From Xanthobacteraceae bacterium (GTDB taxonomy: Bacteria; Pseudomonadota; Alphaproteobacteria; Rhizobiales; Xanthobacteraceae): a stretch of DNA of 64,000 bases. A program made the translations under genes and the position numbers. Below, piece by piece: positions 31,910 through 45,338 of this stretch. How positions within the stretch are numbered: position 1 is the first letter of the stretch; each line of letters begins with the position of its first letter. Below the pieces are notes generated by a model. That model made no database searches. It was given only the letters and a program-made list of their open reading frames with translations, and was not told where the DNA came from. The stretch covers positions 1-64,000 of the forward strand of contig JASHQI010000282.1 in assembly GCA_030037645.1 (NCBI GenBank). Direction: 5' to 3'.

Positions 31910-33652
31910 TCAGCCATCCTCGGCGAGGCCGGGGTTATTGGCTACGCCTTTAAGAGCGACGCGATTGCGGCGTTTGAGCGTGACGATTACGCGATCGGCC
32001 AAATATTTGCCGACGACTGCGGTGACCGGTTTACCGGATTGCTGGTTGACCGAGGCCCAGCCGGCGACCCGATAGCTCTTGTCGACTTCGACCGGGCGGC
32101 CATCATCGAGCGTCATATCCGAAATCCGCTTTCCCATGACTTCGTTCGGCGCGCAGGCATAGTCCATGCCGCCGACGCGCACCATGTCGCCGCCCTGTTG
32201 GTAATACGGATCGGGATTGAACAGGTTGTCGGCCACGTCTTCCATGACCGCCTTGAGATCGCTGCCCTTCATGTCCTGCACGTAGGTCTCAGGATAAGTG
32301 ATCGCCATTTGCGCCATCAAATCGCTCTCCGTGATCGGCTGACCGCCAAGCAGCGTGGTGCCCCAGCGAAACCCTGGCGACAGCGCGATTTGCGCGTCCA
32401 ACTCCTGGCGTAGCGCGTCGCAGATCATCTGATCCGTCGGGCCGGTGAAATTGCCGCGCCGGTAGAGCAATTGTTCGGAAATCACTGTTTGCTTCGATGG
32501 GGCGTCACCAAGCGGCTCGCGATGGCGCGCGATGAGCGCCAGCATTTTGTCGTCCGGCTTGAGCAGATCCGCAAAGACGGGAACGAGGTGATAGCGAAAG
32601 TCCTCGATTGCGCTTTTGCCGACATCGAGATCGAGTACGGCAAGGAATTTTCCGTTCGATCCGGCATTGGTGACCACGGTCTTGCCGCCGGCATTGGCGA
32701 CCACGATCGGGTGCGGCACGGCGTCGTGGGTGTGGCCGCCAAGGATGACGTCGATGCCGGTGACACGACCGGCGAGCTTGAGGTCGACATCCATGCCGTT
32801 GTGCGACAGCAGCACGACGGCGTCGGCATGTTGCGCGCTGCGCAAATCATCGACGAGTTTCTGCAATTCTTGTTCGCGGATGCCGAAGGTCCAATCCGGC
32901 GTGAAGCGCTTCGGATGAGCGATCGGCACGTAGGGAAACGCCTGACCGACAACCGCAACGCGCCTGCCGCCAACGCCTTTAATACTCGCCGGCTTGAAAA
33001 CGCGGCCGGATGCCGGATCGAAGGCGGCTGCGTTGTTGAATGCAGCCTCATCTGTCAAAAAGACATTCTGGGCCAGAAATTCGCCTTTGAACTCTCTGAG
33101 ATTTTGCCGCAAACGCTGTTCGCCGTAGGTGAACTCCCAGTGTCCGGTCGAGAGCTCGATACCGAGACCATTGGCGGCCTCGACCATGTTCGCGCCAGCC
33201 GTCGCATTGGCCTGGCCGGTGCCCTGCCACATGTCGCCGCCGTCGAGCAAAAGCGAATTTCCTGGCCCGGCATCGCTGCGTAGCCGATCGATCAGTGTTT
33301 TCAGATGGGCAAAGCCACCCATACGACCGTAGCGATGTGCGGCTTCCTGAAAGTCGAGGAAGGTGAACGCGTGGGCGCTGCGGGTGCCGGGCGCGATACC
33401 GAAACGTTCCAGGAAGGTGCGGCCGACCAGATGTGGCGGTTGTCCGCGCATGGTGCCGACGCCAATATTGACGCTCGGCTCGCGAAAATACACCGGCTCA
33501 AGCTGGGCGTGCGTGTCGGTCAGATGCAGCACGCGGACGTTGCCGAAACGGCCGATGTCGTAAAGATCGTCGTCGGCCGCAAGCGCAACGCGCGGCATGA
33601 CGCCGGATGCCGCCGCCACGCCAAGCCATCGGATGAAATTGCGGCGATCCAA
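31910..33652 (-). CDS. soxB: Thiosulfohydrolase SoxB
   Basis: RRNFIRWLGVAAASG Tat-type leader; VRVLHLTDTHAQLEPVYFREPSVNIG; LLLDGGDMWQGTGQAN; VILGGHTHDAVPHP. Confidence 0.95.
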   Translation of the reverse strand: MDRRNFIRWLGVAAASGVMPRVALAADDDLYDIGRFGNVRVLHLTDTHAQLEPVYFREPSVNIGVGTMRGQPPHLVGRTFLERFGIAPGTRSAHAFTFLDFQEAAHRYGRMGGFAHLKTLIDRLRSDAGPGNSLLLDGGDMWQGTGQANATAGANMVEAANGLGIELSTGHWEFTYGEQRLRQNLREFKGEFLAQNVFLTDEAAFNNAAAFDPASGRVFKPASIKGVGGRRVAVVGQAFPYVPIAHPKRFTPDWTFGIREQELQKLVDDLRSAQHADAVVLLSHNGMDVDLKLAGRVTGIDVILGGHTHDAVPHPIVVANAGGKTVVTNAGSNGKFLAVLDLDVGKSAIEDFRYHLVPVFADLLKPDDKMLALIARHREPLGDAPSKQTVISEQLLYRRGNFTGPTDQMICDALRQELDAQIALSPGFRWGTTLLGGQPITESDLMAQMAITYPETYVQDMKGSDLKAVMEDVADNLFNPDPYYQQGGDMVRVGGMDYACAPNEVMGKRISDMTLDDGRPVEVDKSYRVAGWASVNQQSGKPVTAVVGKYLADRVIVTLKRRNRVALKGVANNPGLAEDG

Positions 33653-33799
33653 CCGGAACTCCTAATCCGTCATTCCGGGACGCGGCCGCAGTCTGTGGGC
33701 CCGGAAGCAACAATCACGAAAGCTCAGGTTCGTGATATCGGTGTCATTACTACCACGATCGTGGTGACAAATGCGGCCGCCGTGGCTCCCGCATGACGA

Positions 33800-34132
33800 C
33801 TAATGAATAACCGCGGCACGCCAAGCGATTTCCTGCTCCCTCGCCTGCGCGATTGATGCCTTCGCCAACGCTTCGGCCTGTCTGGCATCGTCGACGGCGG
33901 TGTCGAAATCGCCGGCCGCCGCCGCTTTCTTTGCAGCGGTCAGTGTTTCTTCCGTGGTCGTCCATTGATTCTTGAGTGCGCCGGCGTCGTTCTCGGCCGC
34001 TTCTGCCGCATTCAAAGCCGCCTTGAAATCGGCGTTGGTGCTCGCCGCCGTGGCTGCAGTCGCTGCTACCAGCCAGATCAAACCCGTCATGGAAAACAGC
34101 AAGCGCAAACGCATCTCCCTCTCCGGCGTCAC
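33800..34132 (-). CDS. soxK: Small exported SoxK-like (SoxXA-binding) protein
   Basis: ~110 aa, signal peptide, repeating Ala-rich helix AAEAAENDAGALKNQWTTTEETLTAAKKAAAAGDFDTAVDDARQAEALAKASIAQA; 4-bp overlap with soxA. Confidence 0.6.
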   Translation of the reverse strand: MTPEREMRLRLLFSMTGLIWLVAATAATAASTNADFKAALNAAEAAENDAGALKNQWTTTEETLTAAKKAAAAGDFDTAVDDARQAEALAKASIAQAREQEIAWRAAVIH

Positions 34133-34971
34133 GGTCGAGTACCGGGGCCGGCGATCGGCAGGCCGTTGCTCATGTAAGACAGATAATATTCGACATCGCG
34201 ATAAAGCTCGTCTTGGGGCGGGAGCGGCACGCCGCGCACTTGGCTATTGCAGGTGACAAACCGGCGGCTGATCGTACCCATGCCGTTCCATTCCGAGCGA
34301 TAAATCGGCATGGCGGCGAGAATGCCAAGTGCCGGGGCCAGCATCTCGGTGCGGATATGTTCGCCGGCGCTCTGCACATGACAACTCGCGCAAGAGAAAT
34401 TGAGCTGGCCGCGCCGCGTATAAAAATATTCCTCGCCCTTCTCGTAGGCTGCGAGCGCCCGCGGGTCGTTCGGGATTTTGATATCGAATGGTTTACCGCG
34501 CGAGGTGAAGGCCATGTAGGCCGTGAGCGAAGCCATCTCGTCCTTGACGTAGGAATAAGGCGCTTCGCCGTTGGCCTCGCGGCATTGGTTGAGCGCAAGT
34601 TCAAGCGTGATGACCTGGCCGCTTTTCTCATCGAAATACGGATAGTTCTGGCGGATGCCGATGCCCTTGTTGGGAAAGCAGTCGCCGTAAGTCTTGCCGT
34701 TCTTGAACGGCTTCGCGAACATCTGCTTGCCGCGATCTATTGCAAAATCGTAGGGGGGGAATTGATCGATCTCCAGCCACTGTTTGCGTAGGCCGGCATC
34801 CATCGAATAGGGACCGTTGACGAAATCGTTCAACGGCACGTTCGGAAACTTTTTCGTGAAGTAATCGCGGAACGCCTTGAAATCGGCCTGGGGGTTGACG
34901 GCGTCGGCTGCAGTAACGGGCCGGATCAAGGCGAAGACGAAGATCGCCATTAACGACATTGCGCGAAGCAT
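34129..34971 (-). CDS. soxA: Sulfur oxidation cytochrome SoxA
   Basis: GDCFPNKGIGIRQNYPYFD; LNFSCASCHVQSAGEHIR; RRFVTCNSQVRGVPLPPQDELYRDVEYYLSYMSNGL. Confidence 0.93.
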   Translation of the reverse strand: MLRAMSLMAIFVFALIRPVTAADAVNPQADFKAFRDYFTKKFPNVPLNDFVNGPYSMDAGLRKQWLEIDQFPPYDFAIDRGKQMFAKPFKNGKTYGDCFPNKGIGIRQNYPYFDEKSGQVITLELALNQCREANGEAPYSYVKDEMASLTAYMAFTSRGKPFDIKIPNDPRALAAYEKGEEYFYTRRGQLNFSCASCHVQSAGEHIRTEMLAPALGILAAMPIYRSEWNGMGTISRRFVTCNSQVRGVPLPPQDELYRDVEYYLSYMSNGLPIAGPGTRP

Positions 34972-34993
34972 CCGCGTCTTCTCCTGGGCCGCG

Positions 34994-35356
34994 CTATCGC
35001 GTGTAAAGAAAATCGATGATGGACTCGATTTCCTGTCTGGTCAAAATCAAGTTGCGTCCGAACGGCGGCATCACCGTAAGCGGATTTCGCTTGGTCTCGT
35101 CGAAGATGATGGCTGCCAATTGCTTGCGATCGGGGAATCGCTGTTTCATGTTGTTGAGTGCGGGGCCGACATTGCCGGGGGCGTCGCCGCCCGTGATGAC
35201 GTGACAGGTCAGGCAATTGCCCTTGCTGCGGTCGAACGCGAGTGCTTGGCCGGCTGGCGCCGGCGTTTGTGCCAGGGCGGCACTGATTGCGAAAACCGGC
35301 AAACCGACCGCGAGTGCAACCAGCCACAGCATTGCCTGGGCGGTTTTGCAATTCAT
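34994..35356 (-). CDS. soxX: Sulfur oxidation cytochrome SoxX
   Basis: Signal peptide; FDRSKGNCLTCHVITGGDAPGNVGPALNNMKQRFPDRKQLAAIIFDETKRNPLTVMPPFGRNLILTRQEIESIIDFLYT. Confidence 0.92.
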   Translation of the reverse strand: MNCKTAQAMLWLVALAVGLPVFAISAALAQTPAPAGQALAFDRSKGNCLTCHVITGGDAPGNVGPALNNMKQRFPDRKQLAAIIFDETKRNPLTVMPPFGRNLILTRQEIESIIDFLYTR

Positions 35357-35418
35357 CGCCGAGTCATAGGGGCCGTGGCCGCCGAGGGCAACAGACATTG
35401 CTGCCGCACGTCGTTAAT

Positions 35419-39282: not shown

Positions 39283-39627
39283 TCAATGATTTGCGCCTTG
39301 GTGCTGCTGCTGCGGCGCGCTGCTATTGGACAAATAAGTACCGAGATAATTGGTCACGGTGTCGACATCCTCCGGAAACAGCTCGGCACCCCGCGCGACC
39401 ATCGACATCACTGTCTTGTGCCATTGGTCGCGGCTCTGTCGCATGTTGACGAATCGGGATGCCGGATGGCAGGCACCGGCGCAGAGCTCGATGACGGCGA
39501 TCTTGCCGTCGCCGTCGGGAAGCTTCGCCACCGCCGGGTCGATCCGGCGTTGCGCCTCGGCGACGAGCGGCACCAAAGCAAGCGCTGCGAGCGAGAGGCC
39601 GACGGCGGCGATCCACGTCTTGATCAT
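39283..39627 (-). CDS. Small exported c-type-cytochrome-like protein with CX3CH motif
   Basis: MIKTWIAAVGLSLAALALVPLVAEAQ signal; GKIAVIELCAGACHPASRFVNMRQSRDQWHKTVMSMVARGAELFPEDVDTVTNYLGTYLS; internal start at 39627 of longer ORF. Confidence 0.75.
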   Translation of the reverse strand: MIKTWIAAVGLSLAALALVPLVAEAQRRIDPAVAKLPDGDGKIAVIELCAGACHPASRFVNMRQSRDQWHKTVMSMVARGAELFPEDVDTVTNYLGTYLSNSSAPQQQHQGANH

Positions 39628-39635
39628 TTGGACAC

Positions 39636-41540
39636 CTACACCTGTTTGGTCCGCCGTTCGGCAATCGAGTATTTCGGATACCACGTCGAATCGGCGAGAA
39701 GCCCGATCCGCTCGGCCACCACATCGAGCACAAACGGCCTGCCGTCCTTCAGCTCTTTGATGCCGCGTGCGAGTGCAGGCGCCAAATCGCCGGGGCGCGT
39801 GACGGTGGCGCCGTTGACATCGAACGCCTTGGCCGCCGTCTCGAAACTCACATCCGGACTGCCGAGATAACTGCCCATATCGAGCTTGGTCTCGCGCAGC
39901 CGCGGCGCCACCGCGGTGACACGCATGCGTGTGTCGTTGAAGCTGCGATTGTTGAAGACGATGTAGAGCACCGGCGCTTCGAAGCGACGCGCTGCCCAAA
40001 GCGCTTCGATCTGGCCCATCAGGAATGCACCGTCACCGACCAGACACACGGTCTGCCGGTTCGGCTTTGCCATTTTGATGCCGATCGCGGCCCCGACCGA
40101 CCAGCCCAGGCCCGATCCAAGCGTGCGGCCGAACAATTGCTTCTTGCCCTTGCCGAACGTGAGCCAGGGCAGAACGCGCGGCATCGCCGAGTTGAACTCA
40201 TGGGTTATAATCGCGTCCGGCTCGAGTTGCTTTTGCGCTTCGATGGCGATGTGCTCGTAGGTGACCGGGATTAAATCCTTTCGCTCCTCCGCCATCTCCT
40301 TTCGCGTTTGCCAGACTTTGCGATTGAAGTCGGCCATCGCGTCGGTGCGGTCCTTGGCTTTGGCCTTGTCGGCTGGCGTCATTGCCGTCGAGACGGCTTC
40401 AACCAGCGCTTTTGCCGCCTCCTTCACGTCGGCCACGATCGGCACCGTATCGGCGGTCCAGCGCGCGGCGTCGTCCGGCACGGTGCGGACCTCGATGATC
40501 TTCCAGTCCGACGAAACGACAGGCGCAGCGCCTTCCTGATAGAGCATCGGGCTGCCCATGTTGATCATGACGTCGGCACCCTCCAGCGGCCGAAACTCCG
40601 TGAACGAACGGTCGCTCTGTCCGACGTAGAGCGGATGGTCGGTCGGAAAATCGGTGTAGGGGCTCAAGCCCTGAACCACTGGCATGCCAAGGAGCTCGGC
40701 AAGCTGAAGAACCTCGTCATAGGCGTCGGAGCGCCAGACATCGAGGCCCACGAGCATGAAGGGCCTGCGCGCCTCGATCAGAATTTGCGCCGCTTTCTCG
40801 ATCAGCTTCGGATCAGGCTGGGTGCGGATCGGAACCGTAAAAAGCTCGCGCGGATAAATGTCAGCCTTGGCGACGGCCGTGCTGACATTGGTGGGGATCG
40901 CGAGATAGGTGGCGCCGCCGGGCGGCGTCGTCGAAATGCGCATGGCGTTGCGCAGAAGCTCAGGCACGCGGCTCGCCATCGGCACTTCGAAGCTCCAGCG
41001 GGTGAATTGTTTCGTCAATCCCACGAGGTCATCGATCTCCTCGAAATTGTCGCGGCCGGTGCCTTCCGTCGATTTGGAGAACGACGACACAACCAGCGGA
41101 TCGCCGTCACGCTTGGAGTTGAACATGTTCAACATCTGGTTCGCCGTACCGACGGTGCCGTGCACGTTGACGAATGTCGGCTTATTGCCGGCAAGCGCGT
41201 AGCCGGAAGCCATGGCGGTGACGACGCCTTCCTCGGGGCCGAGGATCAGGTTGATGTCGCGGTCGCCCACCATGGCATCGAGCATCGCAGCCGAGGAGGT
41301 GCCGTTGCCGTAGAACACCTGCTTTACGCCGGCTGCCTTGAGTTGCTGAATCAGCAGATAGGCACCGGTGCCTTCGACGGTCCGGACGCCGCCAACGGCT
41401 GCCTGGGCGCTGACCATCGGCGCCAGCGTCGCCAGCACCGACTCGGCTGCCGCGACCGTAAAGCCGCTTGCCGCCATGCCCTTGAGAAAACCGCGCCGAT
41501 CGAGACGTCCTGCAATATAGGCTTGAACCAAATCGCGCAT
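39636..41540 (-). CDS. Thiamine diphosphate-dependent enzyme with Tat-type signal
   Basis: LDRRGFLKGMAASGFTVAAAESVLATLAPMVSAQA leader; Glu-bearing LGPEEGVVTAMASGYA; ThDP motif VCLVGDGAFLMGQIEALWAARRFEAPVLYIVFNNRSF. Confidence 0.88.
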   Translation of the reverse strand: MRDLVQAYIAGRLDRRGFLKGMAASGFTVAAAESVLATLAPMVSAQAAVGGVRTVEGTGAYLLIQQLKAAGVKQVFYGNGTSSAAMLDAMVGDRDINLILGPEEGVVTAMASGYALAGNKPTFVNVHGTVGTANQMLNMFNSKRDGDPLVVSSFSKSTEGTGRDNFEEIDDLVGLTKQFTRWSFEVPMASRVPELLRNAMRISTTPPGGATYLAIPTNVSTAVAKADIYPRELFTVPIRTQPDPKLIEKAAQILIEARRPFMLVGLDVWRSDAYDEVLQLAELLGMPVVQGLSPYTDFPTDHPLYVGQSDRSFTEFRPLEGADVMINMGSPMLYQEGAAPVVSSDWKIIEVRTVPDDAARWTADTVPIVADVKEAAKALVEAVSTAMTPADKAKAKDRTDAMADFNRKVWQTRKEMAEERKDLIPVTYEHIAIEAQKQLEPDAIITHEFNSAMPRVLPWLTFGKGKKQLFGRTLGSGLGWSVGAAIGIKMAKPNRQTVCLVGDGAFLMGQIEALWAARRFEAPVLYIVFNNRSFNDTRMRVTAVAPRLRETKLDMGSYLGSPDVSFETAAKAFDVNGATVTRPGDLAPALARGIKELKDGRPFVLDVVAERIGLLADSTWYPKYSIAERRTKQV

Positions 41541-41810: not shown

Positions 41811-42263
41811 ATGCTGCATCTCACGATCAACGGGACGTCTCACGACGTCGATGCCGAGCCGGATACGCCTTTACTGTGGGTGATCCGCGATACGATCGGC
41901 ATGACTGGAACAAAATATGGTTGCGGCATTCAGCAGTGCGGCGCCTGCACGGTCCATATCGATGGCGTGGCGACGCGCTCTTGCGGCATGCCGGTGAGCC
42001 TTGCGGTCGGCAAGCAGATCACCACGATCGAAGGGCTGGCGCAGAACGGCACGCTCAATGCAGTCCAACAGGCCTGGATCGATCATGACGTGCCGCAATG
42101 CGGCTATTGCCAAAGCGGCATGATCATGGCCGTCACGGCGTTGCTTAAGAAAAAGCCGAAAGCGACCGACGCGGATATCGATCGCGAGCTCACCAACATC
42201 TGTCGTTGCGGCACCTATCAGCAGATACGCGCTGCAATCCACAGCATTACGGCCAAGGCCTGA
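41811..42263 (+). CDS. (2Fe-2S)-binding small subunit of molybdenum hydroxylase (IorA-like)
   Basis: YGCGIQQCGACTVHIDGVATRSC ... QCGYCQSGMIMAVTALL ... NICRCGTYQQIRAAI. Confidence 0.95.
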   Translation: MLHLTINGTSHDVDAEPDTPLLWVIRDTIGMTGTKYGCGIQQCGACTVHIDGVATRSCGMPVSLAVGKQITTIEGLAQNGTLNAVQQAWIDHDVPQCGYCQSGMIMAVTALLKKKPKATDADIDRELTNICRCGTYQQIRAAIHSITAKA

Positions 42264-42279
42264 AGCAGGGGAGGCAGAT

Positions 42280-44454
42280 ATGAATTATCAACCGAAATTC
42301 GATCGTCGCTCCTTTATCGTCGCCTCCGCCGCCGCGGTCAGCGGCTTGTCAGTCGGATTCCATATTCCGTTTGGTGATGAGGCGGATGCCGCATTGTCCG
42401 AGCCGGAGGTCAACGCTTGGGTGGTGGTGAAACCCGATGAAACCGTCGTGATCCGCGTTGCTCGCTCAGAGATGGGGCAGGGCACGCTGACCGGCCTCTG
42501 CCAGATGGTGGCCGAAGAACTCGACTGCCAATGGTCGAAGGTGACGTATGAGTTCCCGACGCCCGGTGAGAACGTCGCTCGCAAGCGCGTATGGGGCGAT
42601 TTCTTCACGGCCGGGAGTCAGGGCATTCGCTCATCCAACCAGTTGGTCCGCAAAGGCGGCGCCGCCGCGCGCATGATGCTAGTGCAGGCCGCGGCCAATC
42701 AATGGAAGGTTCCTGTGTCCGAATGCGTGGCCTCTGCAGGCACGATCACGCATCAACCGTCGAACCGAACCATCACCTACGGCAAGGTGGCGAGCGCGGC
42801 GGCCGAGGTCGAGCCGCCGACCGACATTCCGCTGAAAGATCCGAAAGACTGGACCATTATCGGCAAGGGTCTTAAGCGCCTTGACACCCCCGACAAGACC
42901 CAGGGCAAGACGATCTATGGCATCGACATTCGTCTGCCTGGAATGCTGTACGCCTCGTTCAAGGCCTGTCCGGTCAACGGCGGCAAGATAAAGAGCTTCA
43001 ACGCGGCGAAGATCACCGGCCGCAAAGGCGTGACAAAAGTCGTCCAGGTCGAGGACTACGGCGTCGCCGTCATCGCCGATAGCTGGTGGCGCGCGAAGAC
43101 TGCGCTCGATGCCATGCCAATCGCGTGGGACAATGGCCCCGGCGCCAAAGACTCCGACGAATCGATCGCGGCTTGGCTGAAGCAGGGTCTCGATTCCGAC
43201 GACGGATTGGTCGGCAATAAAGGTGGCGACGTCAAAGCCGGCCTTGCGAGCGCAGCCAAGACCGTAGAAGCCGTCTACGCCTATCCGTACCAAGCGCATG
43301 CCACCATGGAGCCGCAAAACGCCACCGCGCGATATACGCCGGACAGATGCGAGGTGTGGTGTTCAACGCAGAACGGTGAAGCGGCGCTCGCGACCGCGTC
43401 GGAGGCCTGCGGCCTGCCGGTGCCGAAGTGTGAAGTCTACAAGACGTTCCTCGGCGGTGGATTCGGCCGCCGTGCGACGTCGCAAGACTTCGTTCGCGTT
43501 GCCGTCCTCATCGCCAAGCAAATGCCGGGTACACCGATAAAAACACTGTGGACCCGCGAAGAGGACATGACGCATGACTGGTACCACCCGGTCACGCAAT
43601 GCAAGATCACTGCTGGTCTCGACAAGGACAACAACCTGGTCGCGATCCACTATCGCATCTCGGGTCAGTCGATTCTCGCAGGCGTGATGCCGGCGCGACT
43701 ACAAAACGGCAAGGATCCCGCGACGTTCTCGGGCTTCTATCCCGGCGGCGAGGAAGCGGCCTACCCCTATACGGTGCCGAACATCCTGGTCGATCACTCG
43801 ATGCGCAACCCGCATCTGCATCCGGGCTTCTGGCGTGGTGTGAATATCAATCACAACGCCATCTATATCGAGAGCTTCATGGACGAACTTGCCAAGGAAG
43901 TCGGCATGGACGCGCTCGAATTTAGGCGCAAGCTGATGACCAAACATCCGCTGCACCTAGCCTCCCTCAACGCGGTTGCGGAGAAGGGCGATTGGGGTAA
44001 GCCGCTGCCGGCTGGCAGCGGCCGCGGCCTCGCCGTGGCCATGGCATTCGGTAGCTATGTTGCAGCCTGCGCCGAGGTGACGGTTGACGGCAACAAGGTA
44101 AAGATCAATCGCATTGTCGCCGCCACCAATCCCGGCTACGGCGTCAACCCGGCCCAGATCGAGCGGCAAGTCGCCGGCTCGTTCGTTTACGGCCTTACCG
44201 CGCTGTTCATGGGCGGCATCGACGTCAAGGGCGGCAGGGTCGAGCAAGAGAACTTCAACACCTACCAGATGATGAAAATCAGGCATATGCCGAAGGTTGA
44301 AGTCACCGTTATGCCGTCAGGCGGTTTCTGGGGCGGCGTCGGCGAACCGACGATCTGTGTCGCCGCGCCGGCCGTGCTCAACGCAATCACCGCGGCGACC
44401 GGCAAGCGATATCGCACCTTCCCATTGCGCAAGCAGGGATTGACGCTGGTATGA
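42280..44454 (+). CDS. Molybdopterin-binding large subunit, xanthine dehydrogenase family (IorB-like), Tat-type leader
   Basis: FDRRSFIVASAAAVSGLSVGFHIPFG leader; ARSEMGQGTLTGLCQMVAEELDC; QNGEAALATASEACGLPVPKCEVYKTFLGGGFGRR; GGFWGGVGEPTICVAAPAVLNAI. Confidence 0.93.
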   Translation: MNYQPKFDRRSFIVASAAAVSGLSVGFHIPFGDEADAALSEPEVNAWVVVKPDETVVIRVARSEMGQGTLTGLCQMVAEELDCQWSKVTYEFPTPGENVARKRVWGDFFTAGSQGIRSSNQLVRKGGAAARMMLVQAAANQWKVPVSECVASAGTITHQPSNRTITYGKVASAAAEVEPPTDIPLKDPKDWTIIGKGLKRLDTPDKTQGKTIYGIDIRLPGMLYASFKACPVNGGKIKSFNAAKITGRKGVTKVVQVEDYGVAVIADSWWRAKTALDAMPIAWDNGPGAKDSDESIAAWLKQGLDSDDGLVGNKGGDVKAGLASAAKTVEAVYAYPYQAHATMEPQNATARYTPDRCEVWCSTQNGEAALATASEACGLPVPKCEVYKTFLGGGFGRRATSQDFVRVAVLIAKQMPGTPIKTLWTREEDMTHDWYHPVTQCKITAGLDKDNNLVAIHYRISGQSILAGVMPARLQNGKDPATFSGFYPGGEEAAYPYTVPNILVDHSMRNPHLHPGFWRGVNINHNAIYIESFMDELAKEVGMDALEFRRKLMTKHPLHLASLNAVAEKGDWGKPLPAGSGRGLAVAMAFGSYVAACAEVTVDGNKVKINRIVAATNPGYGVNPAQIERQVAGSFVYGLTALFMGGIDVKGGRVEQENFNTYQMMKIRHMPKVEVTVMPSGGFWGGVGEPTICVAAPAVLNAITAATGKRYRTFPLRKQGLTLV

Positions 44455-44490: not shown

Positions 44491-45021
44491 TTGACTGAGC
44501 GCATGGCCGTAGCAAACAAAACGATCACGCCTGCCTCCCCTTCGCACGGGGCAGAGAAAGATGGTGGCATCTCTCGGCGCGAAATATTCGGCGCTATCGT
44601 GGGTGCAGGAGTCATTGCGGCAATCCGGGTCGAACCGGCGCTAGCCACGACGCAGTCGATGCAGGCTGCGATTCGCGACCTTGTCGGCGAAGCGAAGGTC
44701 ACCAAGGGCAAGGTGCATATCGACGTGCCTGCGTTGGTCGACAACGGCAACACGGTACCGCTCACGGTCGATGTCGAAAGCCCGATGACCGCGACCGACT
44801 ACGTGAAGACAATTCACATCTTCAACGAAAAGAATCCGCTGCCGAACGTCATAAACGCGTATTTCGGGCCGCGCTCGGGACGCGCCAAGCTTTCGACCCG
44901 CTTTCGTCTTGCCGATACCCAGACCGTCACGGCGATCGCCGAAATGAGCGACGGCTCGTTCTGGTCTGGCTCCGCCGATGTCGTGGTCACGCTGCAGGCC
45001 TGCCTGGAGAATTTGGATTGA
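44491..45021 (+). CDS. SoxY-like carrier with non-canonical C-terminal arm (QACLENLD)
   Basis: ISRREIFGAIVGAGVIAAIRVEPALA Tat-like leader; SoxY-like KVHIDVPALVDNGNTVPLTVDVESPMTATDYVKTIHIFNEKNPLPNVINAYFGP; ends VVVTLQACLENLD rather than GGCGG. Confidence 0.82.
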   Translation: MTERMAVANKTITPASPSHGAEKDGGISRREIFGAIVGAGVIAAIRVEPALATTQSMQAAIRDLVGEAKVTKGKVHIDVPALVDNGNTVPLTVDVESPMTATDYVKTIHIFNEKNPLPNVINAYFGPRSGRAKLSTRFRLADTQTVTAIAEMSDGSFWSGSADVVVTLQACLENLD

Positions 45022-45338
45022 CGCGCGCGCTCATCAATGTTCCCAAGACCGCGAGGCGCGGCGACGTCATCGAGATCAAGACGTTGATCTCGTACGTCAT
45101 GGAAACCGGCTTCCGTCGCGACAGCGCCGGCAAGGTCTATCCGCGCAACATCATTACAAGGTTCGTGTGCACCTATAACGGCGAACAGATTTTCGGTGCT
45201 GATCTTTTCCCCGCCATAGCAGCCAATCCATTCATTACCTTCTATACGGTCGCGACTGATAGCGGCACGATCGGCTTCGAATGGAACGGTGACAACGGCT
45301 TCCACGAGACCGCCTCGGCAACGATCACGGTCGAATGA
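45018..45338 (+). CDS. soxZ: SoxZ-like carrier protein
   Basis: TTG start overlapping SoxY stop (TTGA); ARRGDVIEIKTLISYVMETGFRRDSAGKVYPRNIITRFVCTYNGEQIFGADLFPAIAANPFITFYTVATDSGTIGFEWNGDNGF. Confidence 0.9.
   Translation: MTRALINVPKTARRGDVIEIKTLISYVMETGFRRDSAGKVYPRNIITRFVCTYNGEQIFGADLFPAIAANPFITFYTVATDSGTIGFEWNGDNGFHETASATITVE

Follow-up and report, generated by a model that had tools for sequence, protein, structure and literature searches.

The window, that is, the whole 64,000-nucleotide stretch of DNA analyzed here, carries a gene for a ThDP-dependent enzyme that begins with a twin-arginine leader and is followed on the same strand by a gene for a small c-type cytochrome. Genes of the sox system and a divergent Mo-hydroxylase pair lie nearby. 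The features considered are the following.

31913..35398, minus strand: soxB (31913-33652), soxA (34129-34971) and soxX (34994-35398), matching TIGR04486, TIGR04484 and TIGR04485 above cut-off
39283..39627, minus strand: small exported c-type cytochrome of 114 aa, in which CAGACH (CxxxCH) comes after a Sec-type signal peptide
39636..41540, minus strand: ThDP-dependent enzyme of the BFDC/acetolactate-synthase fold family, 634 aa, with a Tat leader
41400..41540, minus strand: twin-arginine leader, residues 1-47 of the ThDP enzyme, with DRRGFLK, a hydrophobic region and VSAQA
41811..44454, plus strand: divergent pair of a [2Fe-2S] subunit and a Tat-leader Mo-hydroxylase (XDH/aldehyde oxidoreductase superfamily)
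44491..45338, plus strand: SoxY-related AACIE-arm protein and SoxZ, matching TIGR04487 and TIGR04490 above cut-off

All three ThDP domains were detected in the enzyme above the Pfam cut-offs (TPP_enzyme_N at residues 58-171, TPP_enzyme_M at 247-379 and TPP_enzyme_C at 470-607). The context of the catalytic Glu, LGPEEG (E104), was invariant across an alignment of 13 family sequences, as was the cofactor motif formed by GDG (502-504) and NN (530-531). These features identify the protein as a member of the ThDP-dependent decarboxylase/acetolactate-synthase superfamily, and they bear out the complete ThDP fold with both motifs that the earlier note had described. The highest NCBIfam score was that of PRK08327 (274 of 456 bits, below cut-off); the cut-offs of PRK07092 (benzoylformate decarboxylase equivalog, 240.8 vs. 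493 bits), TIGR00118 (acetolactate synthase large subunit, 189.4 vs. 538 bits) and TIGR03457 (sulfoacetaldehyde acetyltransferase Xsc, 185.5 vs. 676 bits) were also missed, and the protein reached no NCBIfam equivalog. Its nearest solved chains in the PDB were benzoylformate decarboxylases, and there was no pyruvate oxidase among the PDB and NCBIfam matches listed. A single-sequence AlphaFold model was too poor for use (pLDDT 38.5). The host genome encodes about 21 ThDP genes, four of which bear Tat leaders: the window gene and those on contigs C286, C138 and C74. No close member of the window ThDP family (family 1) was found in the plasmid collection, and phylum-wide samples of about 400 genomes each yielded no further close member of either Tat-leader ThDP family.

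The leader of the window enzyme, MRDLVQAYIAGRLDRRGFLKGMAASGFTVAAAESVLATLAPMVSAQA, is quoted in the earlier note only from residue 13 onward. The ATG of the gene lies at 41540 and is preceded by a good Shine-Dalgarno sequence, AAGGAAGG. The twin arginines (RR15-16) were invariant in 13 of the 13 family members, which are 34-84% identical to the window protein; most of them are only 34-38% identical and the closest is 84% identical. L4 and G26 were also invariant in these 13 sequences, and M1 was conserved, appearing as V in one GTG start as translated. The linker that follows the leader varies in length and is Ala/Pro-rich in several members. Between the window gene and its 84% orthologue, the differences fall mostly at third codon positions, the leader included (8/5/22 over 50 codons). 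A mis-annotated start, which would place the real N-terminus after the leader, was rejected on the basis of the Shine-Dalgarno sequence, the invariance of RR and this third-position pattern.

A profile built from the leader only and run against nine genomes matched, beyond its own family, mainly the N-terminal twin-arginine leaders of other proteins, including dienelactone-hydrolase-like and ABC-type binding proteins (named by reading their sequences). AxA-like cleavage sites are present at residues 45-47. Of the Tat-type N-terminus proposed earlier (RRxFLK, a hydrophobic stretch and an AxA-like site), the twin-arginine motif is upheld by the 13/13 conservation of RR, whereas E33 splits the hydrophobic region into uncharged runs of 12 and 19 residues. 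The residue near position 33 is E, Q, K or D across members, and several have a polar or charged residue there. Since E33 interrupts its hydrophobic region, the window leader is a less canonical Tat signal than the leaders of the second clade described below. As the window protein joins the complete ThDP fold to a Tat leader, it is probably exported folded and loaded with its cofactor, in agreement with the unusual location suggested in the earlier note, and the sequence evidence argues strongly for Tat export.

The host assembly (4.57 Mb, 336 contigs, about 90% complete) did not yield tatC, nor did three fragmented MAGs of the same genus. The gene was present in one 99% complete genome of the same genus and in 6/6 relatives tested outside the genus. 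In the host assembly, the syntenic block tatABC-serS-surE coincides with a contig break: contig C143 matches as far as the tatA region and contig C64 begins past surE. Because the gap also removes serS, the missing tatC is best explained as an assembly gap, and loss of the Tat system in the host was rejected on the same grounds. In none of the four assemblies of this genus with the ThDP gene was tatC present; the gap was located for the host assembly.

The cytochrome gene, which the earlier note overlooked, as it did the second family with such a pairing, starts 8 nt past the ThDP stop codon (TAG GTGTCCAA ATG). The 84% orthologue (L034/L074) belongs to a same-genus relative, G960, on a contig that matches public JASHVN010000375.1 (Xanthobacteraceae bacterium); at L034 the ThDP gene is followed by the same cytochrome gene, and the CAGACHPASRFVNMRQS stretch recurs there. 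A homologous cytochrome was found directly upstream or downstream of the ThDP gene in all 13 Xanthobacteraceae family members (13/13; the window, C286 completed on C179, L034, L040, L055-L060, L072, L073 and L075). One of these loci enters the count by an inferred contig joining: the paralogue on C286 is cut at its 3' end, and its last 55 codons are apparently on C179, beside a two-haem cytochrome.

Three arrangements were observed, and their cytochromes are all homologous. In L040, L058, L059 and L060 a one-haem cytochrome (one CxxCH) lies directly upstream, with an additional cytochrome downstream in L059 and L060; in L055, L056, L057, L072, L073 and L075 a two-haem cytochrome (two CxxCH) lies directly downstream; and in the window and L034 the downstream cytochrome has the rare CxxxCH motif (CAGACH), where all other family members have CxxCH. 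This motif is kept between the window copy (39283-39627, minus strand) and that of the orthologue (L034:10049-10372), the two cytochromes being 60% identical overall. The window copy itself had no Pfam match; the family profile matched SorB at 2e-4 and the alpha haem domain of quinohemoprotein amine dehydrogenase (QHNDH) at 8.8e-8. The conserved adjacency argues strongly for a partnership between the ThDP enzyme and the cytochrome c. Against the explanation of a paired module count the members of another alphaproteobacterial family, f92, in which the ThDP leader is present and an adjacent cytochrome was found in 0/4 members with context. The f92 loci (L061-L065) have no adjacent cytochrome, and those that include the 5' end of the gene carry this leader; in L061, a Tat-leader protein that resembles a molybdopterin oxidoreductase, judged only by reading its sequence, follows the ThDP gene.

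The Tat-leader ThDP genes on C138 and C74 belong to another branch of ThDP enzymes, about 28% identical to the window protein, with textbook Tat leaders, and each has a cytochrome c of the Cytochrome_CBB3 type directly downstream. We gathered this second-clade family from 150 Xanthobacteraceae genomes and scored the leader and the cytochrome by one rule, except that three leaders with A or G replacing S/T/D before RR were accepted by eye. A cytochrome c was directly downstream of 29/29 Tat-leader genes with complete flanks and of 0/41 leaderless cousins, two of which have SoxA upstream. Counting these SoxA cases, the contrast is 29/29 vs. 2/41 (Fisher p ~1e-17, uncorrected for phylogeny although the sequences are related). 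In the tree, the two Tat clades stand apart on starred branches and the leader needs two changes, both forced by those branches, which indicates that the pairing arose at least twice; the association of Tat leader and cytochrome accordingly rests on only two independent leader origins. A counter-example in the host genome, C275 (L015), is a leaderless ThDP gene of another branch that is followed by a real c-type cytochrome (CQDCH). It counts against a perfect association, and it was labelled as cytochrome-free in the tree of leader origins. In an example annotated independently, plasmid p3 of Caballeronia zhejiangensis encodes a Tat-leader enzyme (WP_244808613.1) and, after 8 nt, a c-type cytochrome (WP_244808614.1), and Novosphingobium KACC 22771 has the same arrangement. 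In a leaderless Phyllobacterium cousin, an NAD(P)-dependent oxidoreductase gene occupies the downstream place of the cytochrome.

We also compared the wider surroundings of these loci. The cytochrome was the sole neighbour common to the window and the other family-1 loci examined, if one weak HtrA-type match near L060 is set aside. Near these family-1 loci, the 84% orthologue included, no homologue of the sox genes or of the Mo-hydroxylase was present; among all loci examined, homologues of the Mo-hydroxylase pair (77% and 64% identical) were confined to the C324 cluster of the host genome. In that cluster (L049, G000:C324:1-14000) the second Mo-hydroxylase pair is joined by SoxX/SoxA-type cytochromes, and immediately after soxA comes a ThDP gene that has no leader. 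In the window, the SoxY that adjoins SoxZ is the AACIE-arm variant (TIGR04487) and not a true SoxY. Near the ThDP-cytochrome genes of L058 (10620-14540) and L059 there is a pyrogallol-hydroxytransferase-like Mo enzyme with an Fe-S subunit, accompanied in L058 by an IclR regulator. The C138 cluster encodes a cupin protein, an Fe-ADH-type dehydrogenase and a relative of arylmalonate decarboxylase, the pair on Caballeronia zhejiangensis p3 adjoins a Rieske dioxygenase cluster, and L057 and L063 contain apparent Rieske-type oxygenase genes, again by reading the sequence. Several loci are thus placed beside aromatic-catabolism genes, a hint that the substrates may be aromatic 2-oxo acids or products of ring cleavage.

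Sequence evidence establishes the ThDP fold and its motifs, the twin-arginine leader, the order of the two genes and their conserved pairing. Together these features suggest that the two genes probably form a periplasmic redox module, in which a Tat-exported ThDP oxidoreductase passes substrate electrons to its dedicated cytochrome c. The adjoining cytochrome gene, as a putative redox partner, would give a function to the export of the enzyme. According to this proposal, the enzyme would fold and bind ThDP/Mg2+ in the cytoplasm before being exported by Tat. In the periplasm, the ThDP ylide would attack a 2-oxo acid or some similar 2-oxo compound, and decarboxylation would give the enamine. The co-transcribed cytochrome c would accept the electrons one by one, the acyl-ThDP being released as the carboxylic acid, and the electrons would pass from the cytochrome to a cytochrome c oxidase. 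Two elements of this scheme carry less certainty. One is the role of the cytochrome as direct electron acceptor of the ThDP enzyme; the other is the class of substrate, which may be aryl-2-oxo acids or ring-cleavage products. ThDP enamines can be oxidized by one-electron acceptors such as ferricyanide; direct transfer from ThDP to haem would be unusual, as there is no evident flavin or Fe-S relay to connect the two.

It is also conceivable that the exported enzyme is non-oxidative and decarboxylates or carboligates 2-oxo acids with an aldehyde as product; the cytochrome would then take up electrons from a separate aldehyde oxidoreductase, perhaps the Mo-hydroxylase of the window. The closest solved relatives are indeed non-oxidative benzoylformate decarboxylases, and the divergent gene pair at 41811-44454 includes a Mo-hydroxylase that has a Tat leader and belongs to the aldehyde oxidoreductase superfamily. 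However, this Mo-hydroxylase is found near no other family-1 locus examined, whereas in the Xanthobacteraceae the cytochrome is always there, and direct use is favoured by the position of this dedicated cytochrome gene, only 8 nt past the ThDP gene; we therefore regard this explanation as rather unlikely. A role in sulfur metabolism, with a periplasmic enzyme for sulfo-2-oxo acids (which the earlier note had listed as assay substrates) working with the sox system, is suggested by the soxB, soxA, soxX and SoxYZ-like genes within about 10 kb and by the leaderless ThDP gene of C324, which lies directly behind soxXA-type genes and a Mo-hydroxylase in the same genome. Given that no sox genes lie near the 84% orthologue (L034/L074) or other family-1 loci examined, a general sulfur role is unlikely, and the Xsc model reached only 185 bits against a cut-off of 676; the proposed link did not withstand the comparison and appears highly improbable.

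The remaining explanation denies export altogether: the N-terminus would be a short helical segment without a working Tat signal, the enzyme would be cytoplasmic and the cytochrome an unrelated operon neighbour. The E/Q/K/D near position 33, which breaks the h-region in several members, and the absence of tatC from the host assembly agree with it. Nevertheless, the twin arginines are invariant despite about 35% overall identity and are followed by a linker of variable length, the leader profile matches mainly Tat leaders, the adjacency to an exported cytochrome survives rearrangement, and the second clade, with its textbook leaders, shows the same pairing. Moreover, the contig gap coincides with tatABC-serS-surE, and another genome of the genus contains tatC. 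A cytoplasmic enzyme is thus improbable, and we retain the periplasmic redox module as the preferred explanation.

To our knowledge, the accepted location of ThDP enzymes is the cytoplasm or an organelle. The recurrent pairing in two separate ThDP branches points to a kind of redox enzyme outside the inner membrane that has not been described. More tentatively, and with somewhat less than an even chance in our estimation, these proteins may represent a new respiratory class of Tat-exported, flavin-free ThDP:cytochrome c oxidoreductases that evolved at least twice and oxidize periplasmic 2-oxo acids by direct one-electron transfer from the enamine to haem c. An exported ThDP clade with its own cytochrome would give carbon oxidation a new route into the electron chain of the periplasm and, by oxidizing the 2-oxo acid outside, would spare its import; the pair would also test whether a ThDP enamine passes electrons straight to haem. 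In addition, the pairing offers a testable function for proteins annotated merely as thiamine pyrophosphate-binding protein. Searches of the open-licence literature for exported ThDP enzymes, for ThDP with cytochrome c and for Tat with thiamine pyrophosphate returned nothing relevant, and a survey of alphaproteobacterial Tat substrates does not mention acetolactate synthase or decarboxylase (PMC3305326).

Compared with known systems, the window protein resembles benzoylformate decarboxylase (MdlC; PDB 1bfd) in its three-domain ThDP fold, the aligned catalytic Glu and GDG...NN. The Ser and His that align with BFDC S26 and H70 are kept in the window protein, but the His is found only there and in its orthologue and not in most of the family, and a His is absent at the position of H281; the pair H70 and H281, which we take to be the active-site His pair of BFDC, is therefore incomplete. 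Unlike BFDC, the window protein has a Tat leader and a cytochrome partner, and it scored 240.8 bits against the 493-bit equivalog cut-off. Among the top profile matches after BFDC was cyclohexane-1,2-dione hydrolase (PDB 2pgn), a ThDP enzyme that acts on a 2-oxo compound and is not known to be exported or to have a cytochrome partner. The proposed scheme shares with pyruvate oxidase (PoxB) an oxidative decarboxylation by a ThDP enzyme that feeds the respiratory chain. PoxB is a pyruvate:quinone oxidoreductase that works on the cytoplasmic side, depends on FAD and reduces quinone, whereas the window protein is probably exported and its putative acceptor is a cytochrome c.

SorAB, a sulfite:cytochrome c oxidoreductase, and quinohemoprotein amine dehydrogenase resemble the proposed window pair in being periplasmic cofactor enzymes that have their own c-haem partner or domain, and the haem domains of both were matched by the window cytochrome family profile. 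Their cofactors, Mo in SorAB and tryptophylquinone in the amine dehydrogenase, are not ThDP, and their enzyme folds are unrelated to that of the window enzyme. The second Tat-leader clade (C138/C74; WP_244808613.1) shares with the window locus the Tat leader, the ThDP enzyme and the directly downstream cytochrome c, and differs from it in its identity of about 28%, its separate place in the tree, its canonical leader and its Cytochrome_CBB3-type cytochrome.
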